Shown: positions 43,926 to 54,846 of the stretch, one piece after another
How the letters are laid out: each line of letters opens with the position of its first letter
Numbering within the stretch: the stretch's first letter is position 1
Made by a program: the position numbers and the translations under genes
NCBI RefSeq assembly: GCF_008932245.1
Contig: NZ_CP034910.1
Span: 1,798,001-1,862,000, forward strand
DNA length: 64,000 bases
Origin: Sinorhizobium alkalisoli
GTDB taxonomy: Bacteria; Pseudomonadota; Alphaproteobacteria; Rhizobiales; Rhizobiaceae
Direction: 5' to 3'
The notes under the pieces: generated by a model
Told to the model about the DNA's origin: nothing
Databases searched by the model: none
Seen by the model: the letters and a program-made list of their open reading frames with translations, nothing else

Positions 43926-44372
43926 ATGAAGAAGGATCCCAATCCGATCGATGTCTTCGTCGGTTCGCGCGTGCGAATGCGCCGATTGATGGTCGGACTG
44001 AGCCAGGAAAAACTTGCCGACGGCCTGGGCATCACTTTCCAGCAGGTGCAGAAATACGAGAAGGGCACAAACCGCGTCGGCGCAAGCCGGCTGCAGGCGA
44101 TTGCCGACATCCTTGGCGTGCATCCGAGCTTCTTTTTCCAGGAGGACGACAAGACCCAGGCGCGCGAAGCCCCTGCCGATATCCAGGAATCGCAGGAGAT
44201 TTCCTCTTTCGTCGCATCGCGCGAGGGCATCGCCCTCAACAGAGCTTTCCTGAAGATCGCCGATCCGGTCCTGCGGAAAAAGATCATCTCGCTCGTTGCC
44301 GCTATGGCGAACACGCCGGAGGCGGAGCAACTTCCATCCGGGGCGCACCACAGCGAATCCCTGCACAGCTGA
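43926..44372 (+). CDS. XRE family HTH regulator
   Basis: 148 residues. An HTH is clear near 15-70 (R-M-R-R-L-M-V-G-L-S-Q-E-K-L-A and F-Q-Q-V-Q-K-Y-E-K-G-T-N-R-V), ending A-D-I-L-G-V-H-P-S-F-F-F. This form is common among multi-copy rhizobial regulators, in which the C-terminal ~75 residues are variable. The 12-bp tandem repeat before it may be its own site. Confidence 0.85.
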   Translation: MKKDPNPIDVFVGSRVRMRRLMVGLSQEKLADGLGITFQQVQKYEKGTNRVGASRLQAIADILGVHPSFFFQEDDKTQAREAPADIQESQEISSFVASREGIALNRAFLKIADPVLRKKIISLVAAMANTPEAEQLPSGAHHSESLHS

Positions 44373-44530: not shown

Positions 44531-45235
44531 ATGAAAGTCGTCTTCGTCGGTCCTACGGTTCCCGATGCCTCGGAAATGGCCGGTGAGGCGCTCGTCATTC
44601 GTCCGCCTGCCCGGCAGGGCGACATATTGCGCGCCGTGCGCGACGGTACCACCGCGATCGGCATTATCGACGGCATTTTCGAGCGTGTCGCGCCGGTCTG
44701 GCACAAGGAGATCCTTTTCGCTCTGTCGCAAGGCATTGCCGTCCTTGGCGCAGCGAGCATGGGAGCCCTGCGCGCTGCCGAATGCGCCGCCTTCGGCATG
44801 ATTGGGATCGGCGCGATTTACCGCGAATACGCAGCGGGCGGGACTGTGGACGATTCCGACGTGGCGTTGCTGCATGCTCCGCAAGAGCTCGGCTACGCGC
44901 CGCTCACCCTTCCCCTCGTCAACGTCCGGGCGACACTGCGGCGCCTCGCAGAGCGGCAGACCATTTCGGCAACGCACGCATCGGCGATCGAAGACGCCGC
45001 TGCCAAGCTCTTCTACAAGGAGCGAACCTGGCCCACCATCATCGCAGGCGCAAGCCTCCCGCATGCGGATCGCGAAGCTCTGGCAGCGTTGCTGCGCGCC
45101 GGATATGTCGACCAGAAGCACGCGGACGCTCTGGAGCTGTTGAAGGAGCTGTCTCTTCTGTCGGGAGCGGACGCCTCGAGGCAGGGATGGAGGTTCAATG
45201 CGACAAGTCTCTGGACGCGACTTCAGGAAATGTAG
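44531..45235 (+). CDS. TfuA-like protein
   Basis: 234 residues. It has the TfuA core: F-V-G-P-T-V-P, then R-Q-G-D-I-L-R-A, I-G-I-I-D-G-I-F and G-A-A-S-M-G-A-L-R-A-A-E, then M-I-G-I-G-A-I-Y-R-E-Y. TfuA proteins usually act with a YcaO protein to install backbone thioamides or make trifolitoxin-like RiPPs. No YcaO gene is visible in this window. Convergent with the secreted protein at 45313-45939. Confidence 0.85.
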   Translation: MKVVFVGPTVPDASEMAGEALVIRPPARQGDILRAVRDGTTAIGIIDGIFERVAPVWHKEILFALSQGIAVLGAASMGALRAAECAAFGMIGIGAIYREYAAGGTVDDSDVALLHAPQELGYAPLTLPLVNVRATLRRLAERQTISATHASAIEDAAAKLFYKERTWPTIIAGASLPHADREALAALLRAGYVDQKHADALELLKELSLLSGADASRQGWRFNATSLWTRLQEM

Positions 45236-45312: not shown

Positions 45313-45939
45313 TTAATTGGCAGCGAAGCAGTAGAATAGACCGTCTCCGCCGGTGCTCCTGAACGCTTCCAGCGTACAGCCGCCACGCGTCGAATGGGAC
45401 GAGTTCCACGACTTGGCGGCAGCCGAGTCGTCCAAGCCGGTGCGGTCGCTGTGGCCCACGATCGCTGCGCCTTCCGCGCCGCCCATCGTCCAGTTGCCGC
45501 ACGTTTCCGGCGCCGCCGTTCCATCGGGCAGTGAGCCCGTCAGAATGTCGTGGCGGTTCGGGTTGTCACCGCGGCCGGGGATGACTTCTCCTTTTTCGTT
45601 GAGTGCCGTCTGCTTGGATATGTTGTTGCCACCGCCATGTAGCGAGGCAACATCATCGGCAATCCTTTCACCCTTGGCGTTGTACCAGGGTCCTGTGCCA
45701 ATGCGATCCTTGGCATTCTCACGGTCGGTGGAGAGATAGGCTCTCCAGGTCTTGCCTGTCGAACCACTGGCCGCCGCCAGCGCGCTACAATGGGCGTCTG
45801 CGCCCGGAAGGCCTCCGAGGTCCCCGCCCTCGCCTGGGTTGACGCTGGTGACGAAGAAGCTCATCGACGTGTCCTGGGCGCGGGCTGCGAGGACCGAACA
45901 GGCTAATGCGGCTGCGACGAATACTAGCCGACGTTTCAT
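45313..45939 (-). CDS. secreted lectin-like (C-type-lectin-fold) protein
   Basis: 208 residues with a clear Sec signal (cut near A-A-R-A-Q). The mature part has D-A-H-C-S-A-L-A, a W-R-A-Y-L-S-T motif, an acidic G-P-W-Y-N-A-K-G-E segment and cysteines in C-G-N-W, G-G-C-T and F-Y-C-F. This layout resembles the DUF1554/endostatin-like C-type lectin fold, but the assignment is tentative. It would be periplasmic or exported. Confidence 0.55.
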   Translation of the reverse strand: MKRRLVFVAAALACSVLAARAQDTSMSFFVTSVNPGEGGDLGGLPGADAHCSALAAASGSTGKTWRAYLSTDRENAKDRIGTGPWYNAKGERIADDVASLHGGGNNISKQTALNEKGEVIPGRGDNPNRHDILTGSLPDGTAAPETCGNWTMGGAEGAAIVGHSDRTGLDDSAAAKSWNSSHSTRGGCTLEAFRSTGGDGLFYCFAAN

Positions 45940-46148
45940 GACAACCCTCCCGCGATATTCGAGCCTTCAGTGTATTGTCGGAGTCGGCGGCCGTAAAATC
46001 GAAATCTCGTGAGGAGAACGGCGTGCCGCCCGGGCCTTCCAGTATTGGCGAAGAGCGGCACCGCTCTCCGTTGACGTTCGGAACCGAAGAACTCCGTTTT
46101 GAATTGTAGCTGCATGACCAACCGTGCAGCAACGGATACGGGGTTGCG

Positions 46149-46985
46149 ATGGCGACGAGGACATCCGCAGATTCGAAAACAGCTTTCGCGTTGCCCGCCA
46201 CCAGCGAATGGTGGACGCAGCACCGCGGCGACTGGCCGGTCGTCGCAACCGCCATTCACAATGGGCACATGGCTCGCGACGCAGTGCGAAGCCTGTTTGC
46301 GCTTTCCGAAGCAGAACGTCGGCGTGAGGAAGATCCGTTCACCGAGTTCCTGATCCGCGACATCCCGAACCGGATCGTCGTTCACCGCTCGCGGTTTGAA
46401 GTCGACATCAACCGGGCGCGAAGCGGCGCCGTCTATCTGCGTCCGGAACAGGCTTGGGGCCTCAGGGTCTGGAAGACGGAACCGCCGCGGGATCTCGTCG
46501 AAGCATGCCTCGCCATGCACGACGAGTACTATGCGATGCTGCATTCGTTCCTTGCCGGGGTCGAGCGCTGCCACGGACGGTTCGTCGTTCTCGATGTGCA
46601 CAGTTACAATCATCGACGGGCGGGCCCGGGATCGGAACCTATGCTCCCGGCGGAGGCGCCTGACATCAATATAGGCACGTTCTCCATGGACCGGCGAAGA
46701 TGGTCATTTGTGGTGGATCGCCTGGTGGAGGCGCTGCGCGCCTCCGACTTTCCCGGCGGCCGATTGGACGTCCGCGAGAACATCGCATTTCAGGGCCGGG
46801 GCGAGCAGACACGCTTCATCCACGAGCACTTTCCAAACACGGGCTGTGCGATTGCGGTCGAATTCAAGAAAGTCTTCATGGATGAGTGGACCGGCGAGCC
46901 GCGGGGCGATGTCCTCACGGCGCTCAGGCGACTCGTTCGATCGGCCGTGCCGATACTGCTCGACGAATTGGAGGCGCGTCGATGA
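46149..46985 (+). CDS. N-formylglutamate amidohydrolase-like protein
   Basis: 278 residues. Landmarks are R-S-R-F-E-V-D-I-N-R-A-R near residues 80-91 and V-L-D-V-H-S-Y-N-H-R-R near 150-160, which carry the metal-site residues of the family. It could remove a formyl or other acyl group from glutamate or a glutamyl product. The stop overlaps the start of the next gene (ATGA), so the two are co-translated. Confidence 0.82.
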   Translation: MATRTSADSKTAFALPATSEWWTQHRGDWPVVATAIHNGHMARDAVRSLFALSEAERRREEDPFTEFLIRDIPNRIVVHRSRFEVDINRARSGAVYLRPEQAWGLRVWKTEPPRDLVEACLAMHDEYYAMLHSFLAGVERCHGRFVVLDVHSYNHRRAGPGSEPMLPAEAPDINIGTFSMDRRRWSFVVDRLVEALRASDFPGGRLDVRENIAFQGRGEQTRFIHEHFPNTGCAIAVEFKKVFMDEWTGEPRGDVLTALRRLVRSAVPILLDELEARR

Positions 46986-48868
46986 AGCTGGCGAATGCAA
47001 ATGCCGCGAGGGGTGCGGACGCTCCGGAATGGCTTGATGAAGCCTTGAGCGCCATCCAAGCGGGCAAAGCCGTGCGCAAGGAACTTGCCGACGGAGGCCG
47101 CCTCCATATCGACCGGGCACTGCCCTTTCTCTGCGTCCATATCTCGGGAGACGAAGAGCCCGTCGCCCGTGAAATAGTCCAGGCGAACGCGTCCTATCTG
47201 CTCGCGCCCGATGTCGCCGCCGCCACGCCCGTCGTAATGGCCATTGGAAAGCTGCTCGAGCGCCGCTTTGGTGATTTCATGGTGCTCGAAGTCGGTGAGT
47301 TCGCCCGCGATCAACTCTTGACCGAGAAGGCGCCGCTGCTCCCCCCTTTCAAGATCGAAGTCGTCGCAGGCAGTAAAGGGAGCATCCAGACAGCCGCGAG
47401 AGCATTTATCGATGCCGTGGAGGTCATCCAGGGTAAATTCCGCACGCCGCAGGTCGAGTTCCGCGACTGGCCGGAATACGGGAGCGACGCAAATGACACG
47501 CTTGAGGTCCCCTTCCCGATGATGCGCGTGTGCTTTGCACCGATCTACCGCCAACGCGAATCCGGCAATATTTATCCGGAGGTGCGCGAGCGCCTGATCG
47601 CCAACGTGTACGATGCTATCCTGCATGCCTTTGCGGCCTTCGCCGAAGCGACGAGCAGCCTCACTTTTTCGACACATCGCGCCCTTGGGAGGAAGGCCTT
47701 CGTCGATGCAGTGATCCGGACTGACCGGAGTATCGATGAAGTCGCTTCCACTTTCGATTTCCTCCTGGCAGTGACACCGATCAACGCGGAAGCGGCCTGG
47801 AGCGAATTTGCGGCCAGCGACTGCGAGCGCGCGCCGCGCTTCCTCTACCGACCCTTGGTCCTGCAAGTCGATGCCGCGAAAATGAAGCTCTTTTCGATCC
47901 CGTTCGAGCACCTCGAGGATCCCGTGCTCTATCAGCTCTATCGCGAGAAGCAGCAGGAGCTCGATCTGCAACTATCGATGCTGTCGGCGCGGGACACCGC
48001 GAAGTTCGTTGAGTTCGGCCGTGCCCTTTATGGCCCGGTGGAGCCTGGCCTTTTGCTGACCGCGCGAGATATTCTCGCCCGAAGCCAGGGCGTCGTCTCG
48101 GATGTCGCACGAAGGGCCGAACAGCGCGCGGACTGCTATGTCGTCGAAAAGCGTGCGCGCGAGATGATCGCCGAATACGCGCGGCGTTACGACGGCTTCG
48201 AAGCCTGCGTCGAGGTACGGGACGACCTTCCCTCCGGACTGCTGGTTTCGGGCAAGAGGCTGTTGATCGCCCGAAGCACCGTCATGGCTGCAGGCCGTGT
48301 CGAGCCTCTCCTCAGCCATGAGATCGGCGTTCACCTCCTGACCTATGTCAACGGATCAGCTCAGGGCCTGCGTCTGTTTCGCTCGGGCCTCGCCGGGTAC
48401 GAGGGCATGCAAGAGGGGCTTGCAGTCTTTGCGGAATATCTGTCGGGCGGCATGACGGGTGAACGGCTTCGTCTCATCGCTGCCCGCGTGGTTGCCAGCG
48501 CCGCCATGCTCGACGGCGCCTCCCTGCCGGAAGTCTATCGCGCCCTCGTCGCGGATTATGGATTCCGGAAAACGGAGGCCTTCAACATCGTCCTACGCGT
48601 CTATCGGGGTGGGGGTTTCGTCAAGGACGCGATCTACCTGCGCGGACTGCTGCAGCTTCTCGACCACCTGGCGGACGGCGGAACGCTGGAGCCTTTCTGG
48701 ATGGGAAAAATCGCGGCTTCACATTTCGGCGTCATGCAGGAACTGCACGCACGCGGTCTGCTCGGGGCGCCGTCGGTCGATCCCATATTCCTCGATTATC
48801 CGGAAGCATCGTCCCGGCTTGCCAGAGCGCATGCGGGAATGGCTCCGCTCGACATGTTGCAACAATAG
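46982..48868 (+). CDS. DUF1704 / QEGLA-motif metallopeptidase-like protein
   Basis: 628 residues. A metal site is seen as H-E-I-G-V-H (H446, E447, H451) followed 30 residues on by M-Q-E-G-L-A-V-F (E478). This HExxxH plus distant Glu layout is the one known in the MATCAP-type tyrosine carboxypeptidase fold. The family has been labelled a flavohaemoglobin expression modulator in bacteria, but no firm bacterial activity is known. The N-terminal 300 residues have no recognised domain. It is the middle gene of the three-gene operon. Confidence 0.8.
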   Translation: MKLANANAARGADAPEWLDEALSAIQAGKAVRKELADGGRLHIDRALPFLCVHISGDEEPVAREIVQANASYLLAPDVAAATPVVMAIGKLLERRFGDFMVLEVGEFARDQLLTEKAPLLPPFKIEVVAGSKGSIQTAARAFIDAVEVIQGKFRTPQVEFRDWPEYGSDANDTLEVPFPMMRVCFAPIYRQRESGNIYPEVRERLIANVYDAILHAFAAFAEATSSLTFSTHRALGRKAFVDAVIRTDRSIDEVASTFDFLLAVTPINAEAAWSEFAASDCERAPRFLYRPLVLQVDAAKMKLFSIPFEHLEDPVLYQLYREKQQELDLQLSMLSARDTAKFVEFGRALYGPVEPGLLLTARDILARSQGVVSDVARRAEQRADCYVVEKRAREMIAEYARRYDGFEACVEVRDDLPSGLLVSGKRLLIARSTVMAAGRVEPLLSHEIGVHLLTYVNGSAQGLRLFRSGLAGYEGMQEGLAVFAEYLSGGMTGERLRLIAARVVASAAMLDGASLPEVYRALVADYGFRKTEAFNIVLRVYRGGGFVKDAIYLRGLLQLLDHLADGGTLEPFWMGKIAASHFGVMQELHARGLLGAPSVDPIFLDYPEASSRLARAHAGMAPLDMLQQ

Positions 48869-48877
48869 GAGCCGCTA

Positions 48878-49924
48878 ATGCGCATCGCCTTTTTTGTCAA
48901 TTCCATTGAAGGTGAGGCGCCTTACTATACGACGACGTGGCTGGCGCTTGCCGCGCTCGCGCGCGGCCACGAGGTCTGCTACGTCACGCCGGGAGATTTC
49001 GTGCTGCGCCCGGATGACAGCATGCTGATCCGCGCGACGACCCTGGAAGGCTCGAAACCGAAGAAGCCGGAGACACTGCTTGGCGCCTTGCAGAGCAAAC
49101 AAGCGAAAATCGACACGATCGACCTGCGCGAAATCGATGTGCTTTTTCTGCGAAACGACCCCTCCGAAGATGCGGACAGCCGCCCCTGGGCGGTTTATGT
49201 CGGCACGAACTTTGGACGGTTGGCGGCGGCGCGCGGCGTCATCGTCCTCAATGACCCCGAAGGCCTGGCGCTTGCCCAGAACAAGCTTTATTTCCAGGGC
49301 TTTCCTGAGGCCGTACGGCCGACGACGCTGATCTCCAGGAGTATCGAGGAAATCCGGGCGTTTCTCGACAGCCATTCGCGCGGCGTCGTTCTGAAGCCCC
49401 TGCAAGGCTCCGGCGGCAAGAATGTCTTCAAGATCGGCTCCAAGGACGAGGTCAACCTGAACCAGATCTTCGAGGTCGCCAGCGATGGGGGATATCTGAT
49501 AGCGCAGAGCTTTCTGCCGGATGCCGTCGCCGGTGACATCCGTCTCTTCCTCATGAACGGGCGGCCCCTTGAGCGCGATGGCGTGTATGCCGGCTTTCGG
49601 CGTGTCCCGGCCAAGGGCGATGTTCGCTCGAACATTCATGCCAGTGGAACGCCTGAAGCCGCCGCCATCACACCGGAGGTTCTGGCAATCGCCGAAAAGC
49701 TGCGTCCCAAGCTCGTAGAGGACGGCATGTTCCTGGTCGGTCTCGACATTGTCGGCGACAAGGTGCTGGAGGTTAACGTCTTCACACCCGGCGGATTCCC
49801 CGAGATTGCGGCGATCGTCGGTGTGGATTTCAGCGACGCCGTGATCGCGGCGCTGGAGCACAAGCTTCACATCCAGGAACTCTATGGCGGCCGGGTGCCA
49901 AACCGTACTCTGGCGACCCTTTGA
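48878..49924 (+). CDS. glutathione-synthetase-like ATP-grasp ligase
   Basis: 348 residues. It has a Rossmann-like N-terminal part, L-R-N-D-P-S-E-D and then the ATP-grasp motifs V-V-L-K-P-L-Q-G-S-G-G-K-N-V-F near 170-184 and D-I-V-G-D-K-V-L-E-V-N-V-F near 289-301. GshB proteins add glycine to gamma-glutamylcysteine, but the context here points to another ligase that joins an amino acid or peptide. It starts 9 bp after the DUF1704 gene. Confidence 0.82.
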   Translation: MRIAFFVNSIEGEAPYYTTTWLALAALARGHEVCYVTPGDFVLRPDDSMLIRATTLEGSKPKKPETLLGALQSKQAKIDTIDLREIDVLFLRNDPSEDADSRPWAVYVGTNFGRLAAARGVIVLNDPEGLALAQNKLYFQGFPEAVRPTTLISRSIEEIRAFLDSHSRGVVLKPLQGSGGKNVFKIGSKDEVNLNQIFEVASDGGYLIAQSFLPDAVAGDIRLFLMNGRPLERDGVYAGFRRVPAKGDVRSNIHASGTPEAAAITPEVLAIAEKLRPKLVEDGMFLVGLDIVGDKVLEVNVFTPGGFPEIAAIVGVDFSDAVIAALEHKLHIQELYGGRVPNRTLATL

Positions 49925-50125: not shown

Positions 50126-50719
50126 ATGACTCATCGCGACCTGACCATTCTGGTGATTGACGAGAATGCCATCCGTGCCTCGATCATTGAGGCCGGATTG
50201 CGCGATGCCGGCCACAGCCGGGTCAGCGTCGTTCACGACGTCCATGGCGTCGGGCGCGTCATCGAACGGCTGCAGCCGGACGTGATCGTCATCGATCTGG
50301 AAAACCCCAATCGCGATTTGCTGGAGAGCATGTTTCAGCTCTCCCGCTCGGTCAAGCGCCCCATCGCCATGTTCGTCGACCGCTCCGACAGCAGCATGAT
50401 CGAGGCGGCGATCGATGCCGGCGTCTCCGCCTATGTGGTCGACGGGCTGCGGCAGGAGCGGGTGAAGCCGATCCTCGACATGGCGATCGGCCGATTCAAC
50501 GCCTTCTCTCGCATGGAGCGTGAACTCGCGGAAGCGCGCAGCGAGCTCGCGGACCGCAAGGTGATCGACCGCGCCAAGGGTATCCTGATGAAATCGCGCG
50601 GCATCGGCGAAGAAGAGGCCTACAAGCTCCTGCGCACGACCGCCATGAACCAGAATCGCAAAATTGCCGAGATCGCACAGAGTCTTGTGCTTGCGGCGGG
50701 ATTGCTGGAGGACCCTTGA
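50126..50719 (+). CDS. nasT: ANTAR-domain antiterminator NasT
   Basis: 197 residues. The N-terminal receiver-like domain opens L-T-I-L-V-I-D-E-N and has D-V-I-V-I-D-L-E. The C-terminal ANTAR domain (about 135-190) contains D-R-A-K-G-I-L-M-K-S-R-G-I-G-E-E-E-A-Y-K-L-L-R. It binds two-hexaloop RNA hairpins and allows read-through of a leader terminator. NasS holds it inactive without nitrate. It is directly followed by nasS, and a matching leader is seen before nrtA. Confidence 0.92.
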   Translation: MTHRDLTILVIDENAIRASIIEAGLRDAGHSRVSVVHDVHGVGRVIERLQPDVIVIDLENPNRDLLESMFQLSRSVKRPIAMFVDRSDSSMIEAAIDAGVSAYVVDGLRQERVKPILDMAIGRFNAFSRMERELAEARSELADRKVIDRAKGILMKSRGIGEEEAYKLLRTTAMNQNRKIAEIAQSLVLAAGLLEDP

Positions 50720-51940
50720 ATGGCTGCCACCGCCGACATCACTCTTGGTTACATGCCGCTGTTCGACAGCGCGGTCCTGATCGCCGCCGTAGAGAAGGGC
50801 TTTGCCGGCGACGAGGGCCTGTCAGTGCAACTCGTTCGGGAAACGTCCTGGGCGAACATCCGCGACCGGATCGCCGTCGGTCACTTTCAGGCAGCGCATA
50901 TGCTGGCACCCATGCCGATTGCATCCAACCTGGGCCTGACGCCGCTGTCGCTGGAGCTTGTCGCACCCTTCGCGCTCGGTCTCGGGGGCAATGCGGTCAC
51001 GGTTTCGCGTGCGCTCTGGGGGCGCATGTTTGCCGAGGGTGCCGGGCCCGGTACCGATCCGAGCGCCAACGGTACAGCTCTTGGCCATGTCGTTGAGAAT
51101 CGCCGGGCCGCTGGCGAGCCGCCGCTGCGCTTTGCCGTCGTCCACCCCTTCTCTGGCCACAATTACGAGCTGCGTTACTGGCTTGCGGCCTGCGGCGTCG
51201 ATCCGGAAACGGATGTCGAAATTGTTATGGTTCCACCGCCCCTGATGGCCGACGCGCTAGCAACCGGAGCCATCGATGGCTTTTGCGCCGGCGAACCCTG
51301 GAACAGCGTTGCCATTGCAGACGGCGCGGGGCGCATTGTCACAACCAAGGCGTCGATCTGGCGCCTCAGTCCCGAAAAGGTACTGGGCGTCTCGGCGCGA
51401 TTCGCCGCGGAAAACCGCCCGGCGCTGGACGCCTTGCTGCGGGCGCTTTACCGCAGTTCGATCTGGTGCGGCGACAGCGCCAATCACGAAGAACTCGCCG
51501 CCCTGATGAGCGGATCCGAGCACCTGGGCCTTCCACGCGAAAGGCTGATGCCGATCCTGACCGGTCATCTGGCGCTTGGCGACGGCACCACCGACGCGAT
51601 CCCGGAGTTCTTCGTGCCGCATGCCAAGGGGGCAACCTTTCCCTGGCAGAGCCATGCACTGTGGTTCTACAGCCAGATGGTTCGCTGGGGCCACGCAAAG
51701 CACTCGCCCACTAAGGCCGAGCGCGCACGCGACACTTATCGGCCCGATATCTATCGACAGGCACTGAAGCCGATTTCCGCGCCAATGCCGGGCGCCAACA
51801 TGAAGGTCGAAGGGGCGCTGACCGCGGCGGCACCCGTCGGCGCCTCCGAAAAAGGACTGGTACTCGGCCCCGATGGCTTTTTCGACGGGCGGATATTCGA
51901 CCCCGACCGGCTCGACGCCTATCTTGCGAGCCAAAGCTGA
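50720..51940 (+). CDS. nasS: nitrate sensor NasS (NrtA-like protein without export signal)
   Basis: 406 residues. It shares the NrtA/CmpA family layout (L-F-D-S-A-V-L-I-A-A-V-E-K-G-F and N-Y-E-L-R-Y-W-L-A), but there is no signal peptide, so it is cytosolic. NasS binds nitrate or nitrite and releases NasT. The start codon follows the nasT stop with no gap, so the two are made together. Confidence 0.9.
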   Translation: MAATADITLGYMPLFDSAVLIAAVEKGFAGDEGLSVQLVRETSWANIRDRIAVGHFQAAHMLAPMPIASNLGLTPLSLELVAPFALGLGGNAVTVSRALWGRMFAEGAGPGTDPSANGTALGHVVENRRAAGEPPLRFAVVHPFSGHNYELRYWLAACGVDPETDVEIVMVPPPLMADALATGAIDGFCAGEPWNSVAIADGAGRIVTTKASIWRLSPEKVLGVSARFAAENRPALDALLRALYRSSIWCGDSANHEELAALMSGSEHLGLPRERLMPILTGHLALGDGTTDAIPEFFVPHAKGATFPWQSHALWFYSQMVRWGHAKHSPTKAERARDTYRPDIYRQALKPISAPMPGANMKVEGALTAAAPVGASEKGLVLGPDGFFDGRIFDPDRLDAYLASQS

Positions 51941-52079
51941 GTCCGCCCAACGTTCCCTGCCCCATTTTTGTGCACTGCGCAAAATTTATTCAAGCGCTGA
52001 CTTATAGAACATCCGAGCTCTGTTTGGCTCTGCCCTATAATCCCTTGAAAATCCGCGATAATCCGCTGGCTGGCGAAAC

Positions 52080-52095
52080 TGGCACGGTTCGTGCA
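52080..52095 (+). promoter_or_regulatory. sigma-54-like promoter of the nrt operon
   Basis: TGGCACG-GTTC-GTGCA matches the -24/-12 consensus with the correct 10-base spacing and a single change in the -12 box. An imperfect palindrome TTTTGTGC/GCGCAAAA lies upstream at 51966-51984 and could be an NtrC-type site. This would place the operon under nitrogen control in addition to NasS-NasT. Confidence 0.65.
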
Positions 52096-52135
52096 TCGAT
52101 AAAAGCATAGTGCCCCGCGGGGCTCGAAAAAGTTT

Positions 52136-52169
52136 GCGTCCAATGAGGGGCGCTAAAGGCAAGGCTGCC
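52136..52169 (+). promoter_or_regulatory. two-hexaloop ANTAR (NasT) RNA motif in the nrtA leader
   Basis: The first hairpin is GCGTCC-AATGAG-GGGCGC (52136-52153), a 6-bp stem with one G-U pair. The second is GGC-AAGGCT-GCC (52158-52169). Both six-base loops have A at position 1 and G at position 4, the known ANTAR target pattern. The second hairpin shares bases with the 5' arm of the terminator at 52161, so the two exclude each other. Confidence 0.8.
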
Positions 52170-52224
52170 AAACCGGGATCACGCTCTGAACGAGGGGGAG
52201 CGTTGGATTCGGTTTGGCAGCCTT
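52161..52224 (+). terminator. leader terminator controlled by NasT
   Basis: A 15-bp perfect stem, AAGGCTGCCAAACCG at 52161-52175 with CGGTTTGGCAGCCTT at 52210-52224, is followed by TTCTTTTG. The 34-base loop contains a smaller ACGCTC/GAGCGT hairpin. It lies 68 bp before the nrtA start, the usual place for a leader attenuator. Confidence 0.88.
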
Positions 52225-52291
52225 TTCTTTTGCTCCCTGAAACATCGCAACCACAGGCGAACCTCCCATCGCCGCCAGACAGGAGAATAGC

Positions 52292-53692
52292 ATGAGCAGA
52301 CGTTCCATCGACAGATTCGCGAAGTGTTCGATCGTTGCCGCGATGGTGGCTGGCCTCTACAGCGGCACGGCTTCTGTCGCAGCAGCGGAAATGCTGGAAC
52401 TTGAAAAGGACGAACTGAAGCTCGGCTTTATCAAGCTCACCGACATGGCGCCGCTGGCGATCGCCTATGAAAAGGGCTTCTTCGAAGACGAGGGCCTTTT
52501 CGTCACGCTGGAGCCGCAGGCAAACTGGAAGGTGCTGCTCGACCGGGTGATCACCGGCGAACTCGACGGCGCGCACATGCTGGCCGGCCAACCGCTCGCC
52601 GCGACGATCGGCTTCGGCACCAAGGCCCACATCGTCACGCCCTTCTCGATGGATCTGAATGGCAACGGCATCACCGTCTCCAACGACGTCTGGGCGATGA
52701 TGAAGGAGCACATTCCGCTCGGCGACGACGGCAAGCCGGTCCACCCGATCAAGGCCGATGCGCTGAAGCCTGTGGTGGATCAGTTCAAGGCCGAGGGCAA
52801 GCCGTTCAATCTCGGCATGGTCTTCCCGGTCTCCACTCATAATTACGAACTTCGCTACTGGCTTGCTTCCGGCGATATCCATCCGGGCTTTTATTCGCCG
52901 GAAAACGTTTCGGGACAGATCAAGGCCGATGCGCTGCTCTCGGTGACCCCGCCGCCGCAGATGCCGGCAACCCTCGAAGCCGGCACCATTGTCGGCTATT
53001 GCGTGGGCGAACCGTGGAACCAGGCAGCCGTCTTCAAGGGCATCGGTGTTCCGGTCATCACCGATTACGAGATCTGGAAGAACAATCCGGAGAAGGTCTT
53101 CGGGCTGACGAAGGAGTTCACCGAGAAGTACCCGAACACGACGCTCGCCCTGACCAAGGCGCTCATTCGCGCCGCCGAGTGGCTGGACGAGAACAACAAT
53201 GCCAACAGGGCCGAAGCGGTCGAAATCCTGTCGCGCAGCGAATATGTCGGCGCCGACGCGGAGGTCATCGCGAATTCGATGACCGGCACTTTCGAATATG
53301 AAAAGGGCGACAAGCGCGACGTTCCGGACTTCAACGTCTTCTTCCGCCACTACGCGACCTATCCCTACTACTCGGACGCCATCTGGTACCTGACGCAGAT
53401 GCGCCGCTGGGGCCAGATCGCCGAGCACAAGGACGACGCGTGGTACGCCGAGACCGCCAAATCCGTCTACCTGCCGGACGTCTATATGAAGGCGGCGGAG
53501 ATGCTGGTCGAAGAGGGCAACGCCGATAAGGCCGATTTCCCCTTCGGCACCGACGGCTACAAGGCACCGACCTCCGACTTCATCGACGGCATCACTTTCG
53601 ATGCCAAGGCCCCGAACGCCTACATCGACTCCCTCAAGATCGGGCTGAAGAGCGGCCAGACCGTCTCCGGTTCGGAGGTCGTCGGCGGCTGA
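52292..53692 (+). CDS. nrtA: nitrate ABC transporter substrate-binding protein
   Basis: 466 residues with a signal peptide (cut near S-V-A-A-A-E). The mature part has [39 protein letters not shown] and V-G-E-P-W-N-Q. It binds nitrate in the periplasm and is related to NasS. It is the first gene after the NasT-controlled leader. Confidence 0.93.
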
Positions 53693-53697
53693 CATGC

Positions 53698-53732
53698 GGC
53701 GGGCGAGCGCGACCTTCTGGGGTGCGCCCGCC
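53698..53732 (+). terminator. stem-loop between nrtA and nrtB
   Basis: An 8-bp perfect stem GGCGGGCG/CGCCCGCC with a 19-base loop, starting 6 bp after the nrtA stop. No T run follows, so it is most likely a 3'-end stabiliser that raises the level of nrtA message relative to the membrane genes. Confidence 0.6.
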
Positions 53733-53772
53733 ATCCCTTGGACCCACAAATTTCAACAGATGAGACGAATTC

Positions 53773-54846
53773 ATGACTCAAGCGATCACCGTAGCTGACC
53801 CGCGACTTGCGCGACGAGAGCGTCTGTTCCAGCGGATCAACAGAGCCGCCGGCTGGCTGAACGTGCTCGGCCTCGGCTGGGTGACCCCGATCCTGCGCAT
53901 CGCGGCCGGCGACAACGTCGCCGAACAGATGTCGGAGATCCGCAAGGCGCTTCTGGTGCCGCTTGCCGGCATCCTGTTCTTCCTCGCTCTCTGGGCCGTC
54001 CTCGCGCCGAAAGTGCAAACATCGCTCGGCGCCATTCCGGGGCCGACTGCGGTGTTGGCGCAGGCAAACGTGCTTCTCAAGGACCATATCGCGGAACGGC
54101 GCAAGGCCGACGCCTTCTATGCCCGACAGGACGAGCGCAACGCCAAGCTCGTGGCCGAAGGCAAGTCCGGTCAGGTGAAACATCGCATCTTCACCGGCAA
54201 GCCGACCTATCTCGATCAGATTGCCACCTCGCTTTTGACCGTCGGCCTCGGATTCGCGATCGCGACGCTGGTAGCCGTGCCGCTCGGCATCGCCTCCGGC
54301 CTGTCGAAAACGATCAATGGCGCCATCAATCCGCTGATCCAGATTTTCAAACCTGTCTCGCCGCTTGCATGGCTGCCGATCGTCACCATGGTCGTCTCCG
54401 CCCTTTACGTAAATCCCTCGGACCTCCTGCCGAAGTCGCTGGTGATCTCGGCGGTGACCGTGACCCTCTGTTCGCTGTGGCCGACGCTGATCAACACGGC
54501 GCTCGGCGTCGCCTCGATCGACAAGGATCTGGTCAATGTCGGCAAGGTGCTGCAGCTCTCGACCGCGACCACCATCCGCAAGCTGGTGCTGCCGTCCGCC
54601 CTGCCCCTGATCTTCACCGGCCTGAGGCTGTCACTCGGCGTGGGCTGGATGGTACTGATCGCCGCCGAGATGCTCGCCCAGAATCCAGGTCTCGGAAAGT
54701 TCGTCTGGGACGAGTTCCAGAACGGCTCCTCCGACTCGCTCGCTCGGATCATCGTCGCGGTGCTGACGATCGGCATCATCGGCTTCATCCTGGACCGCGT
54801 GATGTACGCGCTGCAGTCCGCCTTCACCTTCTCGTCGAACCGGTAG
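53773..54846 (+). CDS. nrtB: nitrate ABC transporter permease
   Basis: 357 residues. The N-terminal ~135 residues are an added stretch with one membrane span and a charged linker; the remainder is a standard permease with L-L-T-V-G-L-G-F-A-I-A, P-V-S-P-L-A-W-L-P-I-V-T and R-L-S-L-G-V-G-W-M-V-L. It forms the channel for nitrate with the ATPase that follows 9 bp later. Confidence 0.92.
   Translation: MTQAITVADPRLARRERLFQRINRAAGWLNVLGLGWVTPILRIAAGDNVAEQMSEIRKALLVPLAGILFFLALWAVLAPKVQTSLGAIPGPTAVLAQANVLLKDHIAERRKADAFYARQDERNAKLVAEGKSGQVKHRIFTGKPTYLDQIATSLLTVGLGFAIATLVAVPLGIASGLSKTINGAINPLIQIFKPVSPLAWLPIVTMVVSALYVNPSDLLPKSLVISAVTVTLCSLWPTLINTALGVASIDKDLVNVGKVLQLSTATTIRKLVLPSALPLIFTGLRLSLGVGWMVLIAAEMLAQNPGLGKFVWDEFQNGSSDSLARIIVAVLTIGIIGFILDRVMYALQSAFTFSSNR

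Follow-up and report, generated by a model that had tools for sequence, protein, structure and literature searches.

Operons that combine a ligase with a peptidase are a known kind of module. Iyer and colleagues reportedly predicted, in 2009, amidoligase operons in which ATP-grasp ligases are linked with peptidases, and in animals ATP-grasp ligases of the TTL type oppose the MATCAP/TMCP peptidases. Human TMCP1/MATCAP, as described in the available part of PMC10499314, has an HExxxH motif and cleaves C-terminal tyrosine and also glutamate. Here we analyzed a 64,000-nucleotide stretch of the Sinorhizobium alkalisoli genome (hereafter the window; contig NZ_CP034910.1, positions 1,798,001 to 1,862,000), which is part of a 1.98-Mb contig in a 6.13-Mb genome of three contigs, and found in it an operon of three genes that we call FG, MC and LIG. 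FG belongs to the family of the N-formylglutamate amidohydrolases (FGases), MC joins an FGase-like domain to a MATCAP peptidase domain, and LIG is an ATP-grasp ligase resembling glutathione synthetase (GshB). The linking of ligases with peptidases is, as a general idea, what this trio shares with the operons of the 2009 prediction, and it is possible that the trio was already predicted in that survey; what it adds to a known kind of module is high conservation. No description of the trio was present among the matches listed in a search of the open-access literature on it or its families.

Organization and conservation of the operon

The three genes and their parts lie in the window as follows.

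46149-46985, + strand: FG, 278 amino acids, a probable metal-dependent amidohydrolase of the FGase family (M14 fold)
46982-48868, + strand: MC, 628 amino acids, a degenerate FGase-like domain plus a MATCAP metallopeptidase domain, with an ATG start at 46982
47066-47659, + strand: MC residues 29-226, a predicted FGase/M14-fold domain in which the metal-site residues of FG are lost
47762-48862, + strand: MC residues 261-627, the MATCAP peptidase domain
48317-48334, + strand: the HExxxH metal motif (HEIGVH, MC residues 446-451), located by alignment
48410-48424, + strand: the QEGLA motif with a probable third metal ligand, E478, a role assigned by analogy
48878-49924, + strand: LIG, 348 amino acids, a GshB-like ATP-grasp ligase

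A preliminary description of this stretch had given the positions of the three genes, a 4-bp overlap between FG and MC, a 9-bp gap between MC and LIG, and a family for each gene. The open reading frames of the window bear out the positions, the overlap and the gap to the base, and the three family memberships all exceed the curated Pfam or NCBIfam cut-offs.

How widely is this arrangement conserved? Comparing a set of aligned MC proteins of the trio type with species-representative genomes gave 361 relatives. The best 80 loci, chosen by similarity and so not an even sample, were scanned with profiles derived from FG, MC and LIG of the window. FG, MC and LIG were all present in 70 of the 80, and in 68 of these 70 full trios they lay on one strand with gaps of at most 300 bases; the exceptions were L026 (422) and L060 (1,326). 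One further locus, L075, has FG and MC only, its contig ending within MC. According to record titles, mostly those of metagenome-assembled genomes, the 80 loci come from about a dozen phyla. The titles name Alpha- and Gammaproteobacteria, Campylobacterales, Planctomycetes, Anaerolineae, Dehalococcoidia, Poribacteria, Verrucomicrobia and Kiritimatiellae, and further Ignavibacteria, Balneolaceae, Pontibacter and other Bacteroidetes, Gemmatimonadetes, Armatimonadia and Acidobacteria. Isolates or complete genomes among them are Bythopirellula, Pan216, Stieleria and Pontibacter, the ligase of Pan216 (L054) being split across two frames.

We also took an even sample of 398 genomes of the host phylum and counted ligases above the cut-off of NF009110, the subfamily to which LIG belongs. 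Fourteen genomes carry 16 such ligases. For 15 of the 16, that of the window among them, a match to PF08014, the MATCAP family, is no more than about 1.1 kb away; for the sixteenth, the contig ends 48 bases from the start of the gene. Eleven of the 15 loci were examined (the window, L097-L104, L106 and L107), and FG was found in ten, as a separate gene in four and in fused form in six. Counted from the other side, 15 of the 53 PF08014 places in this sample adjoin an NF009110 ligase. The preliminary description had proposed co-occurrence of the three families as a check; in both the best relatives and the phylum sample it goes far beyond chance, and the linkage of the three genes is real.

Closer to the host, MATCAP was present in 5 of 142 genomes of its class and 3 of 249 of its order, its own genome being counted in each. 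The six other positive genomes of class and order include four with the module (L011, L012, L016 and, fused, L015) and two with MATCAP and no module (L010 and L013), the L010 stretch ending just past the MATCAP gene. Within Sinorhizobium, the MC gene is found in 32 of 33 genomes, again including the host's own, and all 20 other loci examined have the full trio, the ligase of L125 being cut by a contig end.

Gene content varies among the 80 loci. Two MC genes accompany two or three ligase frames in L023, L026, L037, L040 and L082, and the ligases of L023, L040 and L082 fall in separate subclades of the ligase tree described below. In L053, L057, L067 and L078, three of them Obscuribacterales by title, a trio-type MC stands alone; next to it, on the opposite strand, is a frame of some 200-220 codons, from one family shared by the four loci.

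The MATCAP protein and the amidohydrolase

MC passes the MATCAP model PF08014 with 312.3 bits (cut-off 27) and TIGR02421 with 352.4 bits (cut-off 338.65), and its nearest relative among named sources is that of S. sojae, at 86% identity. All 63 aligned sequences, that of the window among them, have H446, E447, G449 and H451 and likewise E478, so that MC has the peptidase domain, the HExxxH motif and the glutamate by which a MATCAP is recognized. The role of E478 as a ligand is modeled on the EEG motif of human TMCP1 in the available part of PMC10499314. Since the human enzyme, with the same HExxxH motif, is described there as cleaving tyrosine and glutamate, an acidic substrate is plausible for MC as well. 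The identity of MC to human MATCAP/TMCP1 and TMCP2, which share PF08014, is 21-22% over the structural alignment; unlike them, MC has an extra FGase-like front, and its gene adjoins genes for a ligase and an amidohydrolase. This front, residues 29-226, was overlooked by the preliminary description and, according to the structural model, has the FGase/M14 fold but not the residues of the metal site. A relative of 982 amino acids (P0085) was considered as an MC-LIG fusion and dropped, because beyond the QEGLA region its alignment departs from the frame of the other sequences; we take it as a frame-shift artefact.

FG passes PF05013 (83.6 bits against a gathering cut-off of 28.9), and its AlphaFold2 model has a mean predicted local distance difference test score (pLDDT) of 91.8. 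The top fold match of the model is the N-formylglutamate amidohydrolase 2q7s, with a template-modeling (TM) score of 0.73. After the FGases, at much lower scores, come M14 peptidases and aspartoacylase (a weak match, E 2.9e-3), and the tubulin deglutamylase CCP5 stands at rank 23, also as a weak match (E 0.012). H37, H40, E60, E61, H151 and E238 are invariant in 33 aligned sequences, window included; by analogy, we take H37, E61 and H151 to be the presumable metal ligands and E238 the catalytic residue. FG thus resembles the N-formylglutamate amidohydrolases 2q7s and 2odf in fold (TM 0.73 and about 0.62) and in PF05013 membership, but its identity to them is just 15-16% and it has conserved motifs of its own, such as RSRFEVDLNR and EFKKFFMDEW. 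It also scores far below the HutG deformylase equivalog TIGR02017 (24.2 against 278.75 bits) and, judged by sequence, is no HutG.

The module occurs in two architectures. In type A, that of the window, FG, MC and LIG are three separate genes. In type B (L015, L097-L102 and L155), the FG domain is fused to MATCAP in one protein, with a ligase adjoining that belongs to a separate clade. The fused frames are 662-709 codons long, and H37, E61, H151 and E238 of FG are retained in six of seven type-B proteins (L015, L097-L102); in L155, from Scalindua, both domains were found in one protein by Pfam. A single Scalindua contig carries both types some 35 kb apart, L033 being type A with tandem ligases and L155 type B.

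The ligase compared with glutathione synthetase

LIG passes PF02955 (170 bits against 23) and NF009110, the PRK12458 subfamily (481.8 against 408 bits). The GshB structure 1gsa is its top solved relative (profile E 2.6e-52), and RimK (5zct) is matched at E 1.2e-16. LIG is like RimK and the related alpha-L-glutamate ligases as an ATP-grasp relative, but unlike RimK it retains the GshB-type N-terminal domain PF02951. With GshB it shares the fold family, the ATP-grasp and most invariant residues, the common core including K173, R222, R250, N252, D290, E298 and N300 among others.

Is LIG, then, an ordinary second glutathione synthetase, with neighbors that are unrelated to it? Its closest solved relative would suit such a role, and NCBI names the subfamily NF009110 glutathione synthetase. 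We nevertheless consider this very improbable, for several reasons. First, LIG misses both GshB equivalog cut-offs (TIGR01380, 199.8 against 299.05 bits; NF003573, 210 against 272 bits), and a canonical gshB is already present on a different contig of the same genome (249.3 bits). Second, a tree of 62 ligase sequences, flagged by the program for long branches, separates the 36 type-A ligases from all others at a branch with support 100/99; seven type-B ligases group at 100/99 with the Scalindua sequence L152, itself type B; and 18 GshB rows, including the long branch L151, group apart at 96/90. Third, a residue comparison was made with 17 GshB rows (L151 omitted and L152 moved to type B), 36 type-A and 8 type-B ligases. 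D8 of GshB is replaced by N in 36 of 36 type-A and by Y in 8 of 8 type-B ligases. In the SPT loop, which in GshB contacts the peptide substrate, the T is G in all 44 family rows, the window reading TPG. Fourth, the neighborhood of LIG with MATCAP is nearly strict.

Gamma-glutamylcysteine synthetase was sought in 35 MC genomes, comprising 33 with the full trio, L046 without FG and L057 with MC alone. PF04107 was matched in 20 of the 35, which would favor an ordinary GshB, although this family includes enzymes besides GshA; PF04262 was matched in none. Fifteen of the 35 (14 of the 33 full-trio genomes) match neither, a finding that counts against a GshB role, with the reservation that absence from a single genome is weak evidence because many of these are metagenome-assembled genomes of unknown completeness. 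An additional PF02955 match above 200 bits was present in 4 of the 35. The preliminary description had named an ordinary glutathione synthetase as the outcome that would undo its proposal; cut-offs, tree, motifs and genome context all point away from it.

A model for the operon

What might the three proteins do together? We favor, tentatively and at somewhat less than an even chance, the view that the operon is a self-contained amide-bond module acting on a small acidic peptide or amino-acid conjugate. Like GshB and RimK, LIG would use ATP to activate an acceptor carboxylate, to which it would then couple an amino acid. The MATCAP domain, a putative metallo-carboxypeptidase, would take the C-terminal residue off the same product. 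FG would act on amides of acidic amino acids, cleaving an N-acyl or a gamma-glutamyl bond, and the front of MC, with its likeness to FGase, would most likely serve FG as a partner or substrate-holding domain. The preliminary description had suggested cyclic addition and removal of an amino acid, and enzymes of these types would allow such a cycle. LIG, MATCAP and FG would thus share one substrate pool, and the substrate, most likely a small acidic peptide or conjugate, would be made and turned over by need. The model builds on genes, predicted folds, conserved catalytic residues, linkage, the FG-MATCAP fusion and the position of LIG outside the GshB clade, which are directly supported; from these we infer the activities (by family), the shared substrate, its small size and the FG-MC partnership.

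The favored model is supported by the linkage of the trio, by the FG residues retained in the type-B fusions, by the ATP-grasp core kept in LIG while D8 and the T of SPT are replaced, and by the fold relatives of FG, which are enzymes for single acidic or C-terminal residues. A small peptide or conjugate seems likelier than a protein tail for three reasons: the nearest solved ligase is GshB, single amino acids are the substrates of FGases and of AstE/AspA enzymes, and regulators of the metabolite type accompany some loci. The regulators are LysR-type genes within 0.9 kb in six distinct loci (L097, L099, L100, L102, L103 and L104, the last identical to L066), on the opposite strand in five of the six and beside type-A or type-B units, a placement that fits metabolite sensing. 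In L105, an AstE/AspA-family gene (L105:7061-8119, 126.5 bits) adjoins an MC with neither FG nor ligase in the stretch, as if another acidic-amide hydrolase had replaced FG; this is a single case.

Several observations weigh against this model. MC and LIG occur without FG in 5 of the 80 loci, and MC alone in 4, so the parts can work apart; L106 of the phylum sample likewise has no FG, and the type-B protein of L101 is without two of the four FG residues. In the phylum sample, 38 of the 53 MATCAP places have no adjoining ligase. Ten of these were examined: L108-L116 are MATCAP genes with no trio partner, their open frames having 393-549 codons in eight and 719 in L115, and L105 is the long MC without ligase. 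The likeness of the MC front to FGase is weak in sequence, and it is mainly the predicted fold that carries it. The LysR genes were seen in proteobacterial loci alone and accompany none of the 20 Sinorhizobium loci. Finally, clustering of the flanking frames, in which many clusters are antisense shadow frames, gave no neighbor family that in most loci would name a pathway.

A cycle on a protein tail, like tubulin detyrosination, would make use of the same three activities: LIG would extend a C-terminus or glutamate side chains, and MATCAP and FG would remove the additions. Animal MATCAP/TMCP enzymes cut C-terminal tyrosine and glutamate from tubulin, as the available part of PMC10499314 describes. 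The solved relatives of LIG include RimK (5zct), and the M14-type fold of FG is like that of CCP5, at the weak match given above. We regard such a cycle as unlikely, since most loci lack a shared target gene, the closest solved relative of LIG acts on a dipeptide, and the LysR regulators of some loci point to a metabolite.

Genomic neighborhood

Around the operon, the window holds the following features.

44531-45235: a TfuA-like gene (PF07812, 151.7 bits)
45313-45939, opposite strand: a frame between TfuA and FG with a weak DUF1554 match (25.0 bits against a cut-off of 27.5)
46080-46106, + strand: an upstream element, GGAAC...GAATTG, possibly a promoter of the extracytoplasmic function (ECF) type, conserved in Sinorhizobium
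50126-54846: an ANTAR response regulator, two NMT1-type substrate-binding proteins and a frame that looks permease-like by eye

The commonest neighbor families outside Pontibacter are channel-like and response-regulator-like, in 12 loci each and at varying distance. Genes that by eye look like mechanosensitive channels lie near the trio in 12 loci, and genes that look like cation cotransporters in 11, for example in L029, L043-L045 and L048-L050. Such genes bring into view a biosynthetic role, in which LIG would build a peptide osmolyte or thiol, MATCAP and FG would trim or deprotect it, and expression would depend on stress. Tandem ligases, seen for example in Scalindua/Brocadiaceae loci (L022, L031, L033, L035) and in loci of Planctomycetes type (L023, L040, L082), suggest successive couplings, and in the available part of PMC10308900 a Photobacterium damselae gene named as QEGLA family shows 27.5-fold upregulation at 1% versus 3% NaCl. 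The channel- and cotransporter-like neighbors are nevertheless found in a minority of loci, and the Photobacterium gene could be a MATCAP of the short type that stands alone. We see no great likelihood in this proposal, and keep the self-contained amide-bond module as our preferred view.

The preliminary description also drew attention to a TfuA gene 0.9 kb upstream. Its position holds, the gene ending (at 45235) 913 bp before FG; its association with the trio does not. A TfuA-like frame is found in none of 86 other MATCAP loci and in 2 of the 20 other Sinorhizobium loci, both of which share the whole neighborhood, and the opposite-strand frame intervenes. Despite the proximity in the window, a peptide-modifying cluster of the YcaO type made up of the trio and TfuA is therefore scarcely credible. 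The TfuA-like gene falls below its NCBIfam cut-off (180.8 against 235.2), and by eye there is no YcaO-size frame next to it, YcaO itself not having been searched for. A gene for a short precursor peptide could lie nearby: the search for one covered frames of at least 70 codons and the Sinorhizobium upstream alignment. Upstream of the TfuA-like gene, at 43926, lies a helix-turn-helix gene. On the other side, the genes at 50126-54846 perhaps form a nitrate-type uptake operon; the ANTAR regulator and the NrtA-like genes stand beside the trio in just 2 of the 20 Sinorhizobium loci.

The upstream element appears as GGAAC followed at the matching distance by AATT or ATTG in 19 of 21 Sinorhizobium upstream regions, with diverging flanks; some of these elements are nearly identical. 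Across the window, the bare pattern GGAAC-N15-19-TT occurs 34 times against 22.9 expected, an excess that is not significant. An ECF-type promoter is possible from the sequence. GGAAC recalls the general-stress box of S. meliloti RpoE2, but the element does not match its form and such a role is doubtful: in the RpoE2-dependent rows available from PMC6180224, the second box, CGTT, follows about 16-17 bases after GGAAC, and the element reads GAAT there. A Brucella N-formylglutamate amidohydrolase gene lies behind a predicted ECF site in PMC8315932, the available part of which names no ligase or QEGLA gene.

Other observations concern single loci or single searches. A motif scan pointed to three possible gamma-glutamyl cyclotransferases; one of them, next to FG in L081, was compared with Pfam and confirmed. 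Next to the Magnetococcales trio, L104:765-3789 resembles, by eye, another set of protease and ATP-grasp ligase. A role in defense was considered and rejected, as the three trio proteins matched no PADLOC family up to E 0.01.

Implications

The names currently given to these proteins, namely 'glutathione synthetase' (NF009110), 'flavohemoglobin expression-modulating QEGLA protein' (TIGR02421) and 'N-formylglutamate amidohydrolase', tell little that is certain about the role of these broadly distributed families. One module in two architectures offers a handle on amide-bond chemistry from Planctomycetes to Bacteroidetes, and also on bacterial relatives of a tubulin-modifying peptidase. We speculate, while thinking it doubtful, that the trio might be the forerunner, or the bacterial counterpart, of the machinery that modifies tubulin tails in eukaryotes, with a GshB/TTL-type ligase that adds amino acids to acidic tails set against MATCAP and an M14-fold hydrolase in one operon across about a dozen phyla; if so, animal MATCAP would descend from an enzyme that already opposed an ATP-grasp ligase. 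Should the module prove to make a new peptide metabolite or tag, the annotation of many genomes would change.

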